Shown: positions 23,886 to 33,698 of the stretch, in pieces | How the letters are laid out: every line of letters begins with the position of its first letter | Position numbering within the stretch: position 1 is the stretch's first letter | Assembly (NCBI GenBank): GCA_014239255.1 | Contig: JAAZZE010000006.1 | Location: 1-62,681 of the forward strand | Reading direction: 5' to 3' | DNA: 62,681 bases | From: Gammaproteobacteria bacterium | Lineage (GTDB): Bacteria > Pseudomonadota > Gammaproteobacteria > Arenicellales > UBA868 | Notes under the pieces: generated by a model | Databases searched by the model: none | The model's input: the letters and a program-made list of their open reading frames with translations, nothing else | Told to the model about the DNA's origin: nothing | Made by a program: the position numbers and the translations under genes

Positions 23886-23904
23886 TCAGGGAGTCGGTCC
23901 CTGA
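23886..23904. terminator. Hairpin between the convergent MFS and RuBisCO operons
   Basis: TCAGGGA (23886-23892) and TCCCTGA (23898-23904) form a 7-bp stem with a 5-nt loop. It overlaps the stop codon of the last cbb-operon gene. There is no clear T-run, so termination is a guess from its place between converging genes. Confidence 0.4.
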
Positions 23905-24593
23905 GCGCCTCCGGCCGAGCGCAAAGCCTGCAGGCGGGCATTTAGCTCGAGCAGTACCGGGCCCGCCAGCGTTCCGGCTGCGCTGTGGAGGAACTCCTGA
24001 CGGCAGGCCACAGGCCGATGCAGCGTGACTGGCTCGGCCCGAGCGAAGCCGGACCAAGTGACCAGCGCTGCACCCGACCGGATATCTATGCAGCGCCAAC
24101 GGTGACGGGCGAGTTCCATCCGAACTCCAGTCAATTTACTCCCCAGCGACACGATCAGCGGCTCATGACCTGAACGAAGCGCTTTTCTGACCGCGTTAAA
24201 GCAGTCGGACGGGATAGCCGTATTTGCCATTGTCGCTCGGGCCATGTGGCCTCGCGACCCGATGTCATCAGATCCTGGCGCCTGGACCAGCATGGTCAGG
24301 CGCACAGGTGCGTTCATTCTGTCACCTTCATAAGCAGTGCAGCGTACAAAGTGATCGGGGAAAGCTCGACAACAGTCGCTGAGGTCATTCAGGGCTTGCT
24401 CACCTTCGACTGTTTCGCACACCGGCGTCGCCCAGCGACCCCAGAAAGATTCCGCAAACCCCTCGCGTTGTACGTGCTCGATCAGTATCGTCCAACCAAG
24501 ACGGGCACAATGCTGCAGTTGAGCCTGGATACGTTCAGGATCGGAGACCACCCTGGGGTGAAAGACACCAGCTCGTGGCAGCGACGACTCCAT
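23886..24593 (-). CDS. RuBisCO small-subunit-like fusion protein at the end of the cbb operon
   Basis: A 235-residue protein with two parts. Residues 8-105 align end to end with CbbS of the same operon: ARLGWTILIEHV against [22 protein letters not shown] against [24 protein letters not shown] against [13 protein letters not shown], then RLTMLVQAP against AMVIFRGP. Residues 106-235 are an unrecognised domain with SDCFNAVRKALRSGHEPLIVSLGSK. Identity to CbbS is low, so it is probably not a structural subunit. It starts 5 nt after the cbbO stop and so is coupled to the activase gene. It may dock on RuBisCO or guide CbbQO. Nitrosomonas europaea has an extra gene (cbbN) at this position in its cbb operon; whether they match I cannot test. 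Confidence 0.8.
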   Translation of the reverse strand: MESSLPRAGVFHPRVVSDPERIQAQLQHCARLGWTILIEHVQREGFAESFWGRWATPVCETVEGEQALNDLSDCCRAFPDHFVRCTAYEGDRMNAPVRLTMLVQAPGSDDIGSRGHMARATMANTAIPSDCFNAVRKALRSGHEPLIVSLGSKLTGVRMELARHRWRCIDIRSGAALVTWSGFARAEPVTLHRPVACRQEFLHSAAGTLAGPVLLELNARLQALRSAGGAQGPTP

Positions 24594-24598
24594 TTACT

Positions 24599-26926
24599 TC
24601 AAGAGGTCAGCGTGGCGAACAAGATTGGCAGTTTTTCCGGAAGTCGCCCCACCTGATCAACAATGGTATAGCGGCTAGGGCCGAAAATCCGGCGTACATA
24701 ATCATCCGCATTCGGATCTAGGGTTAGACAGTAACTCTGGATCCCCGAACGATGCAATTCCTCCACGGCCTTGCGCGCATCGTGGCGAAGATGCTGTGGG
24801 TCACGCTCATCTATATCTGCTGGTTCGCCATCGGTGACCAGCAACAGTAGCTTGCGGGCCTGACTCTGTCGCAGCAGGTGCGTGGCCGCATGACGCATAG
24901 CAGCACCCATGCGGGTAGATAACCCTCCATGCATGCCTGCCAGCCGTGCCTTGACCCGGTCATCAAAGCGTTCGTGAAAATCCTTGAAGCGGAAATAACG
25001 TACGTCGTGTCGACCATCGGAGGCGAAGCCATGGATCGCAAAAGGGTCGCCTACACCGGTGATCGCTGTCGCGACCAGTGCGCAGGCTTCGCGCGTCAGA
25101 TCAAGGATGGTCTGTCCGGTGCCACTCACCAGGTCACCGGTAGACTTCGACAAGTCAAGCAGGACAACGACAGCAAGATCCCGGTTTTTCACAACATAAC
25201 GCATTGTGATCCGTGGGCTGGGAGCCTCACCCATGCGCATCGCAATCATTGCATCAACTGCGGCATTAAGGTCTATCTCGTCTCCATCTTCCATGTTCCG
25301 CTCACGGGTAATACCCTCGGGCTGGAGTAAGTCAATGATCTGCTGTATCCGTGCCGTGACCGGGCGGTGCTTAAGCAAGATCGCGTCGATCGCCTCCGCT
25401 GACCCTACTGGTTGGCGCCTTTCATAGACCGTGACCCAGTCGGGACGAGAAAGTTGCACGTGGTAATCCCACTCGGGGTAATGAAAGGGATCGGATATCG
25501 GCTCAGTGCCCTCCAGTTCATTGATAGTGCAAGCTTCCTGGTCCAACCAGAACGGTGTGCTGAGGCGCCATACCTCCTGCGCATCATCGCCGGCATTCTC
25601 ACAATCAAGCGTATTGACCATTTCCATCACCGATACATTCCGTTGTATCTGTACGGGCGCATGGTTGTACGGCGCCCCTGCTTCACTGAATGCCATATCT
25701 TCCGACGCCCAAACAACCCGGTTATCATCCCGATACGGGATACGGATATTCTCGAGGATACGCAGACTGGGAACCTCACGCCGGGCAGCGAACAAATTGA
25801 ATAGCTGTAACCCCAGATGCCAGGAAAACTGCGGGTTATCTCGGTTGTGGACAATCTGCAGGTGAAATTCCCGGATAATCGCGGCAAGCTCAGTATCGTT
25901 TGTGCCGACAGCAGGATCGCGCAGCATCAGCGCTGCATGCTCGAGAATGGCGAGTGTAAGATGCTCGGGCACACTGTTATGTTCCAGCGACAATAAGGTG
26001 CGCCACAAGCGTCCCAGCCCTGGGAATTCCGCCACAGCGCAGTATTCAACTCGCGCATCTTCTATCAGACCGATAAAAAACATCTGTGCTGGACTTAGTT
26101 CCTGGGAGTCAATCGCAACATGGCTGTACACCAGGTGCGCTGCGCAATGCGCGGCGGTCGCGCGGAACAGTTCCAGGCCGGTTATACCGCCCACATCGTC
26201 GACCGCATCGGGCAGGTGTAACACCCGGCTATCAACAAAAGGTCGGAAACCCGGAGTATCGGCCTCAGCTGGGCGCAAGTAGAAATCCCTTGCCCAGAAT
26301 GCCCGCAGGAACAAATTGAGCTTGCGCTGCACATCTATAAACAACGTGCCATGACGCTGCTGACGCAACATGGCAACACTGTCTGGCGTCGCAAGATCAA
26401 AATAAGCAGCCAGGTTGGTCAGATCCCGGCGATAAGCGCGGGCTCCGAAGTCAGCCCAGCGACGCAGGCCACCGAGGGTCAACTTGGACAGCAGTTCATC
26501 AATGTGCGTAAACATGGGTCGTAGGCCACGTGGCGCCTTGGCACAAAGTTGATGCACAAACTGCAAATAGCGCCGGACCAGATCAATATCACCCAGGCGC
26601 TGTGCCGCAATCGGCATACTGGCAAATAACAAACTGATGACTGTTCCAGACGTCATCGAAGAGAGCTTCATAGCCGCTTCGAGGGCATCGGGAATAATGT
26701 CCTCACCAATTTCCCGTGCTACCAGTGGCATTTCCTCCAGCCAAGTGGTCACCAACTCGGAACCCCGCCCTAATTCGGCCAGGCCGCGCGCGGCCTCAAG
26801 GTAGTTGTGCAGGCCAGCAGGTGACATCTGCCGTGCGGCCTCATGGAACATCCCCTCGAGGGTGTCGTGAAGTTGTGGTGCCACCCCCTCAAGCAGGGTC
26901 TGGTAATCATCAAGTTCGAGAGTCAT
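24599..26926 (-). CDS. cbbO: RuBisCO activase adaptor CbbO (VWA domain)
   Basis: A 775-residue protein of the CbbO/NorD family. The N-terminal two thirds are helical, including DYQTLLEGVAPQLHDTLEGM. The C-terminal von Willebrand A domain has the metal-dependent adhesion site VVLLDLSKSTGD (DxSxS), followed by TDGEPADIDERD. CbbO binds inhibited RuBisCO through this domain and, with the CbbQ hexamer, removes inhibitory sugar phosphates (family knowledge). It lies 105 bp after cbbQ and 5 bp before the small-subunit-like gene. Length and motifs look intact. Confidence 0.95.
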   Translation of the reverse strand: MTLELDDYQTLLEGVAPQLHDTLEGMFHEAARQMSPAGLHNYLEAARGLAELGRGSELVTTWLEEMPLVAREIGEDIIPDALEAAMKLSSMTSGTVISLLFASMPIAAQRLGDIDLVRRYLQFVHQLCAKAPRGLRPMFTHIDELLSKLTLGGLRRWADFGARAYRRDLTNLAAYFDLATPDSVAMLRQQRHGTLFIDVQRKLNLFLRAFWARDFYLRPAEADTPGFRPFVDSRVLHLPDAVDDVGGITGLELFRATAAHCAAHLVYSHVAIDSQELSPAQMFFIGLIEDARVEYCAVAEFPGLGRLWRTLLSLEHNSVPEHLTLAILEHAALMLRDPAVGTNDTELAAIIREFHLQIVHNRDNPQFSWHLGLQLFNLFAARREVPSLRILENIRIPYRDDNRVVWASEDMAFSEAGAPYNHAPVQIQRNVSVMEMVNTLDCENAGDDAQEVWRLSTPFWLDQEACTINELEGTEPISDPFHYPEWDYHVQLSRPDWVTVYERRQPVGSAEAIDAILLKHRPVTARIQQIIDLLQPEGITRERNMEDGDEIDLNAAVDAMIAMRMGEAPSPRITMRYVVKNRDLAVVVLLDLSKSTGDLVSGTGQTILDLTREACALVATAITGVGDPFAIHGFASDGRHDVRYFRFKDFHERFDDRVKARLAGMHGGLSTRMGAAMRHAATHLLRQSQARKLLLLVTDGEPADIDERDPQHLRHDARKAVEELHRSGIQSYCLTLDPNADDYVRRIFGPSRYTIVDQVGRLPEKLPILFATLTS

Positions 26927-27031: not shown

Positions 27032-27835
27032 TTACTCAAAGAAGGTATTTACCGCGGCATCCAGGGTATCGCGCATATCCGGGTCGTCCGTCAACGGGCA
27101 GACTAAACTCATACTACAAGCCGCAATGGGTTCCACACCCTTGGCAATCAGTTGCCCGGCATAAACCATTAGCCGCGTTGAGATTCCCTCATCCAGACCG
27201 TGGCCCTTCAGGTTACGGGCACGTTGTGCGACCTGCACCAGTTTGCCGGCAATACCAATGTCGACTCCGGCCTCACGCGCGACAATCTGGGCTTCAATAT
27301 CGGCTTTTGGGTAATCGAAATCTAAACCGGCGAAACGCTGCTTCGTGGACTGCTTAAGATCCTTCATTAAGCTCTGGTAACCGGGATTATAGGAAATGAC
27401 CAACTGGAAATCGGGATGCGCAGCTAACTGCTCCCCTTTTTTATCCAACGGCAAGATTCGACGATGATCCGTGAGGGGGTGAATGACAACGGTCGTGTCC
27501 TGACGGGCTTCAACTATCTCATCAAGATAGCAGATAGCACCTATACGTGCCGCCAGGGTAAGCGGGCCATCCTGCCAGCGTGTACCCTCTTTATCCAGCA
27601 GGAAACGGCCAATCAGGTCAGAAGCTGTCATGTCCTCGTTACAGGCCACCGTAATCAGTGGCCGGGACAGGCGAAATGCCATGTACTCGACGAACCGTGA
27701 TTTACCACAGCCAGTCGGTCCTTTAAGCATAACTGGCATACGTACGCCGTAGGCCGCCTCGTAGAGCTCTACCTCACGCCCTACACACTGGTAGTAAGGC
27801 TCCTCGGTAATTCGGTAAGGGTCACTATCAAGCAT
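27032..27835 (-). CDS. cbbQ: RuBisCO activase AAA+ motor CbbQ
   Basis: A 267-residue MoxR-class AAA+ ATPase. Walker A is [12 protein letters not shown] (residues 38-49), Walker B is [10 protein letters not shown], and the sensor region is [10 protein letters not shown]; the C-terminal lid has the CbbQ/NorQ pattern [17 protein letters not shown]. It forms the ring motor that drives CbbO remodelling of RuBisCO. It lies 53 bp after cbbS; a weak stem CCGGC/GCCGG (27869-27887) in that gap may lower expression relative to the structural subunits. Confidence 0.95.
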
Positions 27836-27888: not shown

Positions 27889-28248
27889 TTAGACTGTAAT
27901 CGGGCCTCGGAAAATTACCATAGCGGTACCTTGCGATTGCGCATAGTTGTCATAACCAACCATCCGGACATGATGTCCTGGATTCGCTGTATGGCAGGCC
28001 TTCGCTTCGTCTAGGATGAAATCGACATCGGTCTCACCGAACATCGGCAATTTCCACATGTACCAGTAATGATCGAACGCATTTTCCGGTTCAGTATGCT
28101 CGATCGCTGGATTCCAGCCACGGGCTACAATGTACTCGACCTGTTTGCGAATTGCGGCATCATCCAGCGCAGGAAGGTACGAGAACGTTTCAAATTTTCG
28201 ACTTTCTGGATCAGAGAGGCGTGAGGCGTAATCTTGCATTTCACTCAT
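27889..28248 (-). CDS. cbbS: RuBisCO small subunit
   Basis: A 119-residue form I small subunit. Typical features are [19 protein letters not shown] near the N-terminus, [27 protein letters not shown] and [18 protein letters not shown]. It caps the large-subunit octamer of the L8S8 enzyme. It lies 33 bp after cbbL. Confidence 0.96.
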
Positions 28249-28281: not shown

Positions 28282-29712
28282 TCAACGATGTACGACGTCG
28301 AGCTTGTCGACGGTGTCGAATTCAAATTTAATCTCTTTCCAGGTCTCCATGGCCGCTGCCAGCTCTGGACTAGACTTGGCTGCATGGCGCAGCACGTCGC
28401 CTCCGCGTTTCTCGAGACCCTCGTTCCCGTTGCAATTGCGGTCCTCTACGCAGGCCTCCAACGCGACACGATTGGCCGCCGCACCTGCTGCGTTTCCCCA
28501 CGGGTGACCCAGGGTGCCGCCACCGAACTGAAGTACCGCATCATCTCCGAAGATACTTACCAAGGCAGGCATGTGCCAAACATGAATTCCGCCTGATGCC
28601 ACCGCGAACACGCCTGGCATAGAGCCCCAGTCCTGATCAAAAAAGATGCCCCGACTACGATCTTCTTTGATATATCTTTCGCGAAGCAAGTCGATCCAGC
28701 CTAAGGTCGCTTCACGATCACCCTCTAACTTACCTACTACAGTTCCGGTATGCAGATGATCTCCCCCAGATAGCCGCAAGATCTTTGCTAGCACCCGAAA
28801 ATGGATGCCGTGTTTTGGGTGACGATCCAACACCGCATGCATGGCGCGATGGATATGCAGCAACAAGCCATTATCACGACACCAATTTGCTAGCCCGGTG
28901 TTGGCACAGAATCCACCGGTTATGTAGTCATGCATGATGATCGGCGCGCCCAGTTCCTTGGCATACTCGGCCCGTTTATACATCTCCTCGGGTGTCGGCG
29001 CCGTAACGTTCAGGTAGTGGCCTTTACGTTCCCCGGTCTCACGCTCGGACTTATGGATCGCCTCCATAACGAAGTCGAATCTTTGGCGCCAGCGCATGAA
29101 CGGTTGCGAGTTGACGTTCTCGTCATCCTTAGTGAAATCCAGCCCGCCACGTAAACACTCATAGACGGCCCGACCGTAATTTTTTGCCGACAAACCCAAC
29201 TTGGGTTTAATGGTACAGCCAAGTAAAGGGCGGCCGTATTTGTTCATGATGTCGCGCTCTACCTGGATCCCATGTGGCGGTCCGCCACAGGTCTTGACAT
29301 AGGCGATTGGAAAACGGATATCTTCTAGCCGCAAGTGACGAAGCGCCTTGAAACCAAATACGTTGCCGACCAGTGAGGTAAATACATTCACCACAGACCC
29401 TTCCTCGAAAAGGTCAATCGGATAAGCGATAAAAGCATAGAATGACTCGTCATCGCCTGGCACGTCCTCAATCGCGTAGGCTCGCCCCTTGTAATAATCA
29501 AGGTCAGTCAATAGATCCGTCCAGACCGTAGTCCATGTACCTGTAGATGACTCAGCTGCGACCGCTGCAGCCGCTTCCTCGCGTGGTACCCCCGACTGCG
29601 CCGTAATCTTGAAACAGGCCAAAAGATCGGTGTCCGCGGGCGTGTAGTCGGGCATCCAATAGGTTTCCCGATACTCCTTAACTCCGGCCTGGTAATTCTT
29701 GGTTGACATCAA
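28282..29712 (-). CDS. cbbL: RuBisCO large subunit, form IA
   Basis: A 476-residue (or 475 from the second ATG) form I large subunit that carboxylates ribulose 1,5-bisphosphate in the Calvin cycle. Active-site parts are intact: [18 protein letters not shown] with the catalytic lysine (K169), [17 protein letters not shown] with the carbamylated lysine K195 and Mg ligands D197 and E198, [17 protein letters not shown] for loop 6, and [12 protein letters not shown]. The proteobacterial sequence type and the link to cbbQ/cbbO, with no carboxysome genes nearby, fit form IAq. It heads the operon; no cbbR gene is adjacent. Confidence 0.97.
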
Positions 29713-29840: not shown

Positions 29841-30701
29841 CTAAATCGAGAGAACGATATCGTAACCACCGAACTTTCGGATATTCAGTACACCGCTGTC
29901 CAAAATCAAATACTGGCCCTTAATGCCGAGCAGACGTCCTGTAACTCGGGGCGTTTTATCAAGGTTAAGAGCGTTCACTTTTTCTGGATACTGGTTGACT
30001 GGATACTGAATCTCAACCGGAGAGACCTGCTTTATTACGCGAATATCACCTGGGTCAATAGCTTCGGTCACGGGACCTATGGCAGCAGCAGCCTGCGCGA
30101 GCAATCGTTCTCGCTCAGCCACCAGATCAAGTGGGTCAGGAGCCCCTTTAAGCATACGGCGCCAGTTGGTACGGTCGGATACAACAGTGCGTATTGCAAC
30201 CTCCAATAATCCGGCAATACGACGCTCGCTGACCTCAAAGATGGGTAGCGCCTGGGAGGCGCCCTGATCGATCCAGCGAGTGGGCACCTGGGTAGCCCGA
30301 GTGACGCCGACTTTCAACCCGGATGAATTAGCAAGGTACACGATATGGGATTGCAGGCAATGGGCCTGGCCCCACTCTGGCTCCCGGCAAGTTCCTTCAT
30401 GGAAATGGCACAACTCTGGCTTTATGATGCATTGGTCACAAGCCGCGAGTCGCTTCAAACAGGGGTAACAATACCCTTGATTAAAACTTTTATTGGTCTT
30501 GCGCCCACAGCTAAGACAAAATATTTCACCACGGAATTCGATTTCAAGTTCCCGACCCAATAACACATTGAGTCCTACCAGTGCTTCGCCGATAGGCAGT
30601 TGATATTCGACCGGTGAAGCGGTCTTGGTGTGCATTTTTTGAATCACACCGTCTGGCATATATACCTCCCTGGCCTCGTGACGAATAAACTGACCGCGCA
30701 T
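29841..30701 (-). CDS. DUF2797 family protein
   Basis: A 286-residue protein with a cysteine-rich N-terminal half: FCLSCGRKTNKSFNQGYCYPC, then CDQCIIKPELCHFHEGTC, which probably binds zinc. Next comes HIVYLANSSGLKVGVTRATQVPTRW, resembling a GIY-YIG-like strand pattern described for DUF2797 proteins, and a helical C-terminus. Its function is not known. Start ATG 30701 is the longest option; ATG 30659 (MPDGVIQK) is also possible. It lies between the Crp-family regulator and cbbL on the same strand; whether it shares a transcript with either is unclear. Confidence 0.75.
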   Translation of the reverse strand: MRGQFIRHEAREVYMPDGVIQKMHTKTASPVEYQLPIGEALVGLNVLLGRELEIEFRGEIFCLSCGRKTNKSFNQGYCYPCLKRLAACDQCIIKPELCHFHEGTCREPEWGQAHCLQSHIVYLANSSGLKVGVTRATQVPTRWIDQGASQALPIFEVSERRIAGLLEVAIRTVVSDRTNWRRMLKGAPDPLDLVAERERLLAQAAAAIGPVTEAIDPGDIRVIKQVSPVEIQYPVNQYPEKVNALNLDKTPRVTGRLLGIKGQYLILDSGVLNIRKFGGYDIVLSI

Positions 30702-30922
30702 CTCGAGTGGTTCATCGGATCTCCTCTACACTGAATTAACTGGGGTCAAAGGGGCGGCTATCCATAAGATCCTTCCCAGTGAGCTGAATCGTGAAATAAG
30801 GGCCGACTGCCCCCTCCTGAAGAGCCACTATAACGCCCAGTGGGACCATTGGGCGAAGGTATCGGTGAAGATTCCAAGTCTGCCGACCGACTAGATAGGC
30901 TCTAGTTGCTAACTGGCAACTA

Positions 30923-31579
30923 TCAATAGTCCGCGGGCAACTTGCGCTCGATAACCCACCGACCGGGCTCAATACGGATGTATCCACCCTTAACCAGATC
31001 GCTCATGATTCTGCTGACCATTTCCCGGGAGCAACCGATCATGTCGGCGAGCAACTGATGGGTCAGCCGTTCGGTAATTACCCACTCGCCGTTTTCCTCC
31101 ACAGCACATTCTTGTAGCCGGGCGGTCAGCCGCCGGTAAACACTATCTAACGCAAGCCCTTGAGCCCCCTGGGTTAGCTTTCGAATTCGACCGGCCAAGC
31201 TTTGGATCACCGAGCGGTTGAGTTCAGTATTACGCTCAAGTAACGCAAAAAAATCATCTGCACTTATCTTGAGTAACTCAGTTTGCTCCATAGCGGCTAT
31301 AGATGCCGAACGGACTGCTCCGTCAAGCACGGCAATTTCTCCAAATACTGCTGAGGGACCCTCCAATGCGAGCACCATCTCTTTGCCGTCTTTATCTGAC
31401 ACATAAACCCGGACACGACCACCTATAACGACATAAAGCGCGTCCCCAACCGAGCCCTGACTGATGATGATCTCACCACGTTGCGCTGTGATCGGCCTGG
31501 CCAGTACGGCCAGAGCCTGCAGTTCGTTGTCCCCCAAGGTAGAGAACAAAGTTACCTGTCTTAAGATATCGATGGTCAC
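30923..31579 (-). CDS. Crp/Fnr-family transcriptional regulator
   Basis: A 218-residue regulator. Residues about 10-120 are a cyclic-nucleotide-binding-type jelly roll (GDNELQALAVLARPITAQRG, VFGEIAVLDGAVRSASI), followed by a long dimer helix. A winged helix-turn-helix at about 160-205 reads RLTHQLLADMIGCSREMVSR, close to Crp recognition helices. The pattern GEIAVLDGAVRSAS resembles the Crp phosphate-binding cassette, so cAMP or another nucleotide could bind. There is no N-terminal cysteine set as in Fnr. It lies 76 bp beyond the C1 operon on the same strand and may control it or the cbb operon. Confidence 0.88.
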   Translation of the reverse strand: MTIDILRQVTLFSTLGDNELQALAVLARPITAQRGEIIISQGSVGDALYVVIGGRVRVYVSDKDGKEMVLALEGPSAVFGEIAVLDGAVRSASIAAMEQTELLKISADDFFALLERNTELNRSVIQSLAGRIRKLTQGAQGLALDSVYRRLTARLQECAVEENGEWVITERLTHQLLADMIGCSREMVSRIMSDLVKGGYIRIEPGRWVIERKLPADY

Positions 31580-31655
31580 AACGCCAGCCTCCCGAATAAG
31601 GTATCGCGAGAATCAAGAGTAGTCACACCACCGTGTCCGGGCAAGCGGGAAATAG

Positions 31656-33698
31656 TCAGCGCCTGCGGCGACGCCGGGTGCCCGTCAGCGCCTGGGTCTT
31701 TGCCCCGGTTATGCGGGTTGGCCATGTGACCGCCTTGGACAACTGGGCGAACTGGGCGCTTTTATGGGGAATAGCCATCGCCTCTACAAAATGCTCCTGG
31801 AACCTGGATTCGACGGCAGTTTCGATTTTCTCTATTTTGCGGATCTCCTTTTCGATCTCCCGGCGTGCGTTCACATCAACCAAAGCAATATGAGCACCGC
31901 TCCCAGCCGCGTTGCCTGCCGAGGTGACATTACCCAATTCACAGTCGGGAATCAGACCCAGCACCATAGCGTACTTAACATCAATATGGGAACCAAACGC
32001 TCCAGCCAGACGAATGCGGTCAATTTCTTCCACGCCAAGTTTATCCATTAACAATCGAATCCCAGCGTAAAGCGCTGCTTTAGCAAGCTGGATGGCGCGC
32101 ACATCGTTTTGGGTGACTGTGACCGTAATATCTCCCTTGTGAAGGACAAAAGCGAAAGTCCTGCCATCTGCGATCACCCTGGCTGAGTATTGAGACAAAT
32201 TGCCATCGATGACTCCATCGGAGCTGAGTATGCCAGCAAGGTACATCTCGGCCACCACTTCGATAATCCCCGAACCACAAATGCCTGAAATACCTACCGT
32301 GGCGACCGCCTGCTCAAACCCGGGGTCGTCAGACCACAAGTCACAGCCGATTACCCGGAACCGGGGTTCCAGGGTTTCGCGATCAATACGCACCCGCTCA
32401 ATCGCCCCAGGGGCGGCGCGCTGACCACCGCTGATCTGCGCCCCTTCAAAGGCTGGGCCCGTGGGGCTACTGGCTGCCAACAGGCGATCTCGGTTTCCTA
32501 GGACGATCTCTGCATTGGTACCTATATCAACCAGCAAAGTCATCTCCTTGCGCAGATACGGTGCCTCGGACAAAACCACAGCTGCACAGTCAGCGCCAAC
32601 GTGGCCTGCAATGCAAGGCAGTACGTAACAGCGTGCACCGCGATTGAGGCCAAGATTAAGTTCGTGTGCTGGCATCGTGATAGCGCTATCCGTTGCAAGC
32701 GCAAATGGCGCTCCGCCCAACTCAACTGGCGAGAACCCTAACAACAGGTGATGCATGATCGGGTTACCGACAAAAGCGCAGTCGAGTATGTCATCAACAT
32801 TACTGTCAGTTTCTTGGCAAACCTGCGCTACCAGTTCTGTCAGAGTCTGGCGTACTACGCGAGACATATCCTGTTCGCTGCCCGGGTGCATCATCACGTA
32901 AGAGACGCGGCTCATCAGATCTTCGCCAAACCGAATCTGCGGATTCATCCGACCAACCGAGGCAAGAGATTGGCCGCTGGTCAGTTCAATAAGATGCATG
33001 GCAATCGTGGTTGAGCCCACATCAACCGCAAGCCCCAGCGCCGTGTTGTGATAACCAGGCCAGATAGCGATAATCTCGCGTTGCTGAAATACGGCAACTG
33101 TGACCTGCCAATTACCCTCGCGCATCACGGCTTGCAGTTTTCCCAGTACCTGGGGGTCACAACTGAGCCCGGTCAAAGCCCACTCGAATTCTAATTCCTC
33201 TTCCAGGCGGCGAAGATCAGACACTGCCTCGTGCATATTGGGTGGACTGACTTCAACCACGTGCAAATGCACCAGAGGGTCAACTGCCAGATCGTGCACT
33301 TCGGTTCGCTTGCGGATCACCTGCCGATGAACCTGACTCTCAGGTGGTACATCGATCACAGCATCGCCAAGCAACCGGGCTGAGCACCCCAACCGCCGAC
33401 TTTGGGCCAGACCAGTTACCGCGTGGTAATCAACCTCATTCCCACCAAAGTCGGAAAGGTGCTCGGGCCGCGATTCAATACCGTGTTTGGGAAATGACCC
33501 CTCACTTAGAGTCACCTGACAGCGACCACAGATCGCCCGACCCCCACATACCGAATCCAAATCGACGCCAAGTTCGCGCGCTGCCTGCAACACGGTTGTC
33601 CCACGGGCAACACGCCCTCTGCGACCGGATGGGGTGAAGACCACCAGCACATCCCCACCTGCTGCGAGTGCAGTTTCAGTGGCGTCAGCAGTACTCAA
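31656..33698 (-). CDS. RACo-type corrinoid activator (2Fe-2S plus ASKHA/DUF4445)
   Basis: A 680-residue protein. The N-terminal plant-type ferredoxin domain has four cluster cysteines at 51, 57, 60 and 105 (SVCGGRAICGRCQVT; RRLGCSARL). The large C-terminal ASKHA ATPase domain begins with LAVDVGSTTIAMHLIEL and includes LLVDIGTNAEIVLGN and RIRLAGAFGSHIDVKYA. This is the architecture of RACo/RamA-like proteins, which spend ATP and an electron to bring inactive Co(II) corrinoid back to Co(I). The frame opens with TTG at 33698, overlapping the GFA-gene stop (TTGA). It is the last gene of the C1 operon. Confidence 0.9.
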   Translation of the reverse strand: MSTADATETALAAGGDVLVVFTPSGRRGRVARGTTVLQAARELGVDLDSVCGGRAICGRCQVTLSEGSFPKHGIESRPEHLSDFGGNEVDYHAVTGLAQSRRLGCSARLLGDAVIDVPPESQVHRQVIRKRTEVHDLAVDPLVHLHVVEVSPPNMHEAVSDLRRLEEELEFEWALTGLSCDPQVLGKLQAVMREGNWQVTVAVFQQREIIAIWPGYHNTALGLAVDVGSTTIAMHLIELTSGQSLASVGRMNPQIRFGEDLMSRVSYVMMHPGSEQDMSRVVRQTLTELVAQVCQETDSNVDDILDCAFVGNPIMHHLLLGFSPVELGGAPFALATDSAITMPAHELNLGLNRGARCYVLPCIAGHVGADCAAVVLSEAPYLRKEMTLLVDIGTNAEIVLGNRDRLLAASSPTGPAFEGAQISGGQRAAPGAIERVRIDRETLEPRFRVIGCDLWSDDPGFEQAVATVGISGICGSGIIEVVAEMYLAGILSSDGVIDGNLSQYSARVIADGRTFAFVLHKGDITVTVTQNDVRAIQLAKAALYAGIRLLMDKLGVEEIDRIRLAGAFGSHIDVKYAMVLGLIPDCELGNVTSAGNAAGSGAHIALVDVNARREIEKEIRKIEKIETAVESRFQEHFVEAMAIPHKSAQFAQLSKAVTWPTRITGAKTQALTGTRRRRRR

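Follow-up and report, generated by a model that had tools for sequence, protein, structure and literature searches.

RuBisCO requires repair and assembly factors, and the assembled L8S8 enzyme is bound by the SSUL domains of CcmM and of cyanobacterial Rca. Docking domains of the small-subunit (SSU)-like kind are known from two proteins of cyanobacteria, and they have no RbcS N-terminal loop (PMC7059596). The SSUL of Rca is fused to an AAA+ activase and is used in β-carboxysomes (PMC7059596, PMC8580825), and CcmM, which carries several SSULs in a row, serves as a scaffold of the carboxysome.

The stretch of DNA analyzed here (62,681 nucleotides, to be referred to as the window) carries an operon on the minus strand with the order cbbL-cbbS-cbbQ-cbbO-X, based on Pfam content. 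The last gene, X (23886..24593, an ATG-start ORF of 235 aa), was located in the initial annotation with no strand given; it is on the minus strand as well. It is a fusion gene, with an RbcS-like (SSUL) domain at residues 19-104 (24282..24539, minus) and a C-terminal accessory domain of an undescribed family (23904..24245, minus). The operon begins with cbbL (28282..29712, minus), an ORF for the form IA RuBisCO large subunit, which is the single CbbL found in a search of the window assembly. This gene is followed by cbbS (27889..28248, minus), encoding a green-type (form IA) small subunit of 119 aa (PF00101, E=1.8e-37), with 204.6 bits for the IA profile as compared to 92.5 bits for the IC profile. 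The motor of the RuBisCO activase, a MoxR-type AAA+ protein of 267 aa, is encoded by cbbQ (27032..27835, minus; PF07728 and PF08406 CbbQ_C), and its adaptor subunit of 775 aa by cbbO (24599..26926, minus; PF00092 VWA, with full-length relatives behind cbbQ). The gap between the stop codon of cbbO and the start of X is 5 nt, and the close coupling of the two genes that was pointed out at the outset is thereby confirmed.

No bacterial-microcompartment shell protein was found in the window genome, which is 89% complete, so the earlier statement that there is no carboxysome here holds as far as visible. CbbX was not found in the window assembly either. Upstream of cbbL, the region 29841-33698 encodes a DUF2797 protein, a Crp/FNR-like regulator and a RACo-like ASKHA protein, in an order that is conserved in two congeners (L034 and L035). 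This stretch is possibly a regulatory neighbourhood of the cbb operon.

X differs from the SSUL of Rca in its position beside CbbQO, its unrelated partner domain, the absence of carboxysome genes and its red-type RbcS ancestry (see below). In comparison with CcmM (6hbb, 6hbc), X has a single SSU-like domain. Unlike CbbQO and CbbX, it has no AAA+ or VWA domain, and would be an accessory protein and not an activase.

X may be a RuBisCO-docking accessory protein, a reading to which we assign a probability of roughly 0.4. The SSU-like half would no longer be a structural subunit. It would bind the assembled form IA L8S8 in the manner of the SSUL of CcmM or Rca and tether the second half at RuBisCO, and the second half, held at the enzyme, would aid its repair or maintenance (or assembly). 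A site of action at RuBisCO is suggested for the second half because its fusion partner is of the RbcS type. In the open-access literature searched, no paper described an SSU-like protein encoded within a CbbQO operon, nor an SSUL beside CbbQO that is of red-type descent and in a setting free of carboxysome genes. X would be a helper of RuBisCO not described before, one that probably docks on the enzyme. If so, it would represent a third, independent SSU-like module, from a carboxysome-free proteobacterial operon, and small subunits would have been re-used as tethers more generally. The fusion partner would then be a missing component of RuBisCO maintenance, which is testable in vitro.

Fold and ancestry of the RbcS-like half

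Judged from sequence profiles and a predicted structure, the first half of X is a true RbcS homologue with an RbcS fold, as the initial annotation had proposed. The Pfam profile PF00101 (RuBisCO_small) matches residues 19-104 with E=2.1e-14 (53.7 bits, curated cut-off 27), and a search of PDB sequences with X finds RbcS chains, the best being 5nv3 (E 1.9e-10). The two halves of X were modelled separately, and a combined alignment of them, which was misaligned, was discarded. For the first half, AlphaFold modelling that included relatives gave a pLDDT of 76 and a pTM of 0.70. With this model, Foldseek finds 74 PDB matches below 1e-3 (E down to 5e-7), and nearly all of the best 50 of the 74 are RbcS or SSUL chains.

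A relation to SSUL-type docking domains, also suggested earlier, agrees with the target-normalised fits. Among the matches listed, the highest target-normalised score (TMt 0.82) is that of 6has, the SSUL of Nostoc Rca, and the SSUL of CcmM (6hbb) reaches 0.78. The similarity in sequence between X and the CcmM SSUL is negligible (E 0.08). As in X, the SSUL of Rca (ALC) is an RbcS-like domain without the N-terminal segment of RbcS, and is functionally tied to an activase.

The first half of X is also similar to the red-type (form IC/ID) small subunits, in sequence family, fold and top database matches. There are two differences, however, between the red-type small subunits and the SSU-like proteins. 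The N-terminal segment that contacts RbcL, with its FSFLP/FSYLP motif, is replaced in all SSU-like members. The C-terminal βE-βF hairpin of red-type small subunits is absent from the SSU-like proteins: the free-standing relatives have only 103-111 aa, as compared to 144-145 aa in red-type CbbS, and hence no room for it, and in X a linker and another domain are found in its place from residue 105 on. Assembly of red-type RuBisCO depends on this hairpin (PMC9833052). The first half of X combines an RbcS fold with the loss of the N-terminal RbcL-binding segment, as an SSUL does. X would act like an SSUL at most, and is not classed as a member of the CcmM or Rca family.

The RbcS fold would also allow X to replace some of the CbbS in L8S8, as an alternative small subunit that alters the kinetics or adds a peripheral domain. 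The loss of both the FSFLP-type motif and the red-type hairpin (PMC9833052) argues against such a role, as does a red-type ancestry beside a green-type large subunit, and we consider it very improbable.

The initial annotation had aligned the first half of X with CbbS of the same operon. This match is well past chance (27% identity, E=8e-11), but there is no special kinship between the two proteins. In a tree of 91 RbcS domains, X, its congeners, the proteins of a sister family and one Candidatus Competibacteraceae protein form one clade (98/98), which is separate from the 45 form IA subunits (100/100) and lies closer to form IC. Branch lengths are large, and the SSU-like clade is not rooted by the tree alone, so three further tests of ancestry were applied. 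For an SSU-like member from the sister family, red-type small subunits make up the whole of the top 12 PDB matches (90-65 bits), and every green-type match ranks below them. Red-type small subunits are likewise the top PDB matches of the Competibacteraceae member, above the green-type ones. In nine free-standing SSU-like relatives, the IC profile scores 23-41 bits above the IA profile; in X itself the margin is 6 bits, a weak red-type leaning. By these comparisons the SSU-like half is of red-type (form IC/ID) ancestry, weakly so by X alone. An origin of the first half as a duplicate of its own CbbS was considered and rejected, since both the tree and the profiles separate the clade from form IA and place it closer to the red type.

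The X-bearing genomes have no red-type enzyme for the SSU-like half, bar assembly gaps. Only form IA CbbL was found in the eleven relatives searched and in one further genome (G276; see below), with at least 89% identity where the sequences are long. CbbX was not found in any of these genomes, and a control genome was positive. The assemblies searched are 74-99% complete, and the absence of red-type CbbL and of CbbX carries that caveat.

Fused, two-gene and deleted versions of X

Both halves are fused in one gene in three genomes of the window genus (including G001 and G013), although the gene in G013 is divided between two contig ends. In eight genomes of the sister family, which belongs to the same taxonomic order, the two halves are encoded separately behind cbbO, by an SSU-like gene and then an accessory gene, which adjoin or overlap by a few nt. 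The order of cbbO, SSU-like gene and accessory gene is the same at the Competibacteraceae locus. In the sister family, the products of the two adjacent genes would work together in trans; in the window genus they are fused.

The SSU-like half is rare: it was found in a single order, in one genome of Competibacteraceae and in an orphan case apart from these, and the majority of cbbQO operons do not have it. The orphan case, in G276 (L098:8648-9375), is a less changed red-type RbcS-like gene of 106 aa that adjoins an accessory gene. There is no CbbL beside this pair, which is located about 17 kb from a form IA operon. In one congener, G015, a remnant is found between cbbO and an MFS gene (L034:12439-12645), with the first ~30 codons of X joined out of frame to the last ~30 and the middle deleted. 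X has thus been lost from this congener.

X is fast-evolving within the window genus. The identity between the window and G001 is 67% for X, as compared to 92.5% for CbbO and 98% for CbbS, and the dN/dS of X for this pair is about 0.3, several-fold above those of cbbS, cbbQ and cbbO. In the two-gene version, dN/dS is about 0.06-0.4, indicating purifying selection.

The main rival to docking is that X is a captured relic. An SSU and an accessory protein would be left over from a lost red-type operon (cbbL-cbbS-cbbX-accessory), or would have been captured behind a green-type operon, with the accessory part still useful and the SSU-like half drifting and of little function. The red-type ancestry in genomes with neither a red-type large subunit nor CbbX is what such a history would leave behind. 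The same can be said of the orphan IC-type pair in G276, where the only CbbL is of form IA, and of the strong divergence of X within its genus together with the deletion in G015. On the other hand, the two-gene version has dN/dS values well below 1, and the pair of SSU-like and accessory genes is intact and adjacent in the eight sister-family genomes and in Competibacteraceae. The in-frame upkeep of a dead domain within a fusion is also unlikely. On balance we regard an origin of X as a relic as rather unlikely. The preferred reading, in which X docks on RuBisCO, has points against it as well: the patchy distribution of X, which is missing from most cbbQO operons and reduced to a remnant in G015, its fast evolution in the window genus, and its own red-type leaning of just 6 bits.

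The accessory family of the second half

The second half of X (about residues 118-230) had not been recognized initially, and it gives no match in Pfam, NCBIfam or PDB sequences. Ten diverse members of its family have no significant Pfam or NCBIfam match either. A second-half profile finds members in 81 of 369 gammaproteobacterial genomes, and nearly all of these relatives are standalone genes. The C-terminal half of X matches this profile with E=5e-45, being itself part of it, and relatives of the second half are also recovered independently with the whole X protein as the query. The conserved columns of the family are N/W/W/C/H. The second half thus belongs to a separate family of small proteins, which appears to be undescribed as judged from the libraries searched. 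The possibility of another RbcS copy was also considered for the second half, and is unsupported (profile-profile probability 0.1%).

The model of the second half (pLDDT 84.9, pTM 0.77) is a compact α/β domain. Its best match in the PDB, the F1-ATPase assembly chaperone Atp11, has a VIA-align Z score of 6.3, which is under the noise level of 7-8 stated for the tool, and the best Foldseek E value is 0.02. PTB/PH, START-like and Atp11 folds were considered for this domain. The matches to them are all weak, and the fold is therefore not assigned.

The accessory family is linked to RuBisCO: RbcS is encoded in 75 of the 81 genomes with the family and in 69 of the 288 without it (Fisher P 2e-30); conversely, the family is missing from 69 of 144 RbcS-bearing genomes, about half. 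Another possibility is that X is an assembly factor, with the SSU-like half as a placeholder that occupies or shields the small-subunit sites and the accessory half as an L8S8 chaperone, a proteobacterial counterpart of Raf1 or RbcX. An RbcS-like fold without the elements that anchor a true RbcS would suit a placeholder, and the sub-threshold similarity to Atp11 would suit a chaperone. However, the Atp11 score lies below the noise level, and so many RbcS-bearing genomes have no accessory family that we consider an assembly factor improbable.

The accessory family is also linked to the activases, and its genes are often encoded directly downstream of CbbQO or CbbX. Among the genomes whose CbbO scores 700 bits or more, 64 of 98 have the family, as compared to 17 of 271 without such a CbbO. 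For 47 of 74 CbbO genes of the form I type, an accessory gene is located within 6 kb downstream, and the same holds for only 1 of 25 more divergent ones. In the 50 contig loci with an accessory gene, it is at most 600 nt from cbbX in 21 and at most 600 nt from cbbO in 15. Behind cbbX, the median gap is about 50-60 nt. Examples are Thiocystis violacea DSM 207 and Nitrosomonas sp. Nm34, with the gene beside cbbX, and Methylophaga sp. OBS4, with the gene beside cbbO. About one quarter to one third of the accessory genes are behind neither cbbO nor cbbX.

A role for X in guiding CbbQO to RuBisCO, raised in the initial annotation, would be in keeping with the 5-nt distance from cbbO and with the accessory genes behind 47 of the 74 form I-type CbbO. 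What stands of this link is that the accessory half is often found behind cbbO; it is found equally closely behind cbbX in red-type operons, and sometimes behind neither. The co-occurrence with cbbQO shows the same division, the second half being widespread beside activase genes and the SSU-like half being rare, missing from the majority of CbbQO operons and lost by deletion in one congener. We therefore think it quite improbable that X recruits CbbQO specifically. As the accessory family goes with either type of activase, its function is more likely aimed at RuBisCO than at CbbQO, and since some of its genes are located behind neither activase, a role in repair is not specific. From its genomic distribution, the second-half family would be a general RuBisCO or Calvin-cycle accessory rather than a CbbQO guide.

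A broader version of the docking proposal is more tentative. A widespread accessory protein would serve CbbX or CbbQO, and a captured red-type SSU would deliver it to green-type RuBisCO, as a non-carboxysomal tether of the SSUL type that arose independently of cyanobacteria. The accessory family itself has no name or function, and is present in about one fifth of the sampled gammaproteobacterial genomes and about one half of the RuBisCO-bearing ones. It is found in 9 of 249 in a wider sample of the phylum, which adds few more, and a search of plasmid records gave no match.

Nitrosomonas europaea has an extra gene, cbbN, after cbbO, to which X may correspond according to the initial annotation. 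If cbbN belongs here, it would more likely match the second half of X. No relevant paper on cbbN or cbbLSQON was found in the open-access literature. At the locus seen in Nitrosomonas sp. Nm34 (L163), only the second-half family is present, behind cbbX in a red-type operon, with no SSU-like gene.

In the tree of the accessory family, the SSU-linked accessory genes fall outside the main CbbO-linked clade, and the tree does not settle an origin from a red-type operon. The SSU-linked labels of L149 and L183 in this tree are artefacts of truncated CbbS.

Several accessory genes are located away from RuBisCO. In Acidiferrobacter (L179:6774-8411), the accessory gene is behind an aldolase-like gene, identified by reading the sequence, and a pyruvate-kinase-like gene is located upstream. 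The family may therefore be one of the Calvin cycle rather than specific to activases. Other such genes are found at L166, L169-L172, L175 and L182. Tandem accessory genes are located behind cbbO at L109:1173-2235 and L125:4011-4733. In two genomes, G365 (L120) and G254 (L126), red-type and green-type RuBisCO operons are divergent, with an accessory gene behind the red-type genes in both, and the profile search lists a second accessory copy behind cbbO in each of them.
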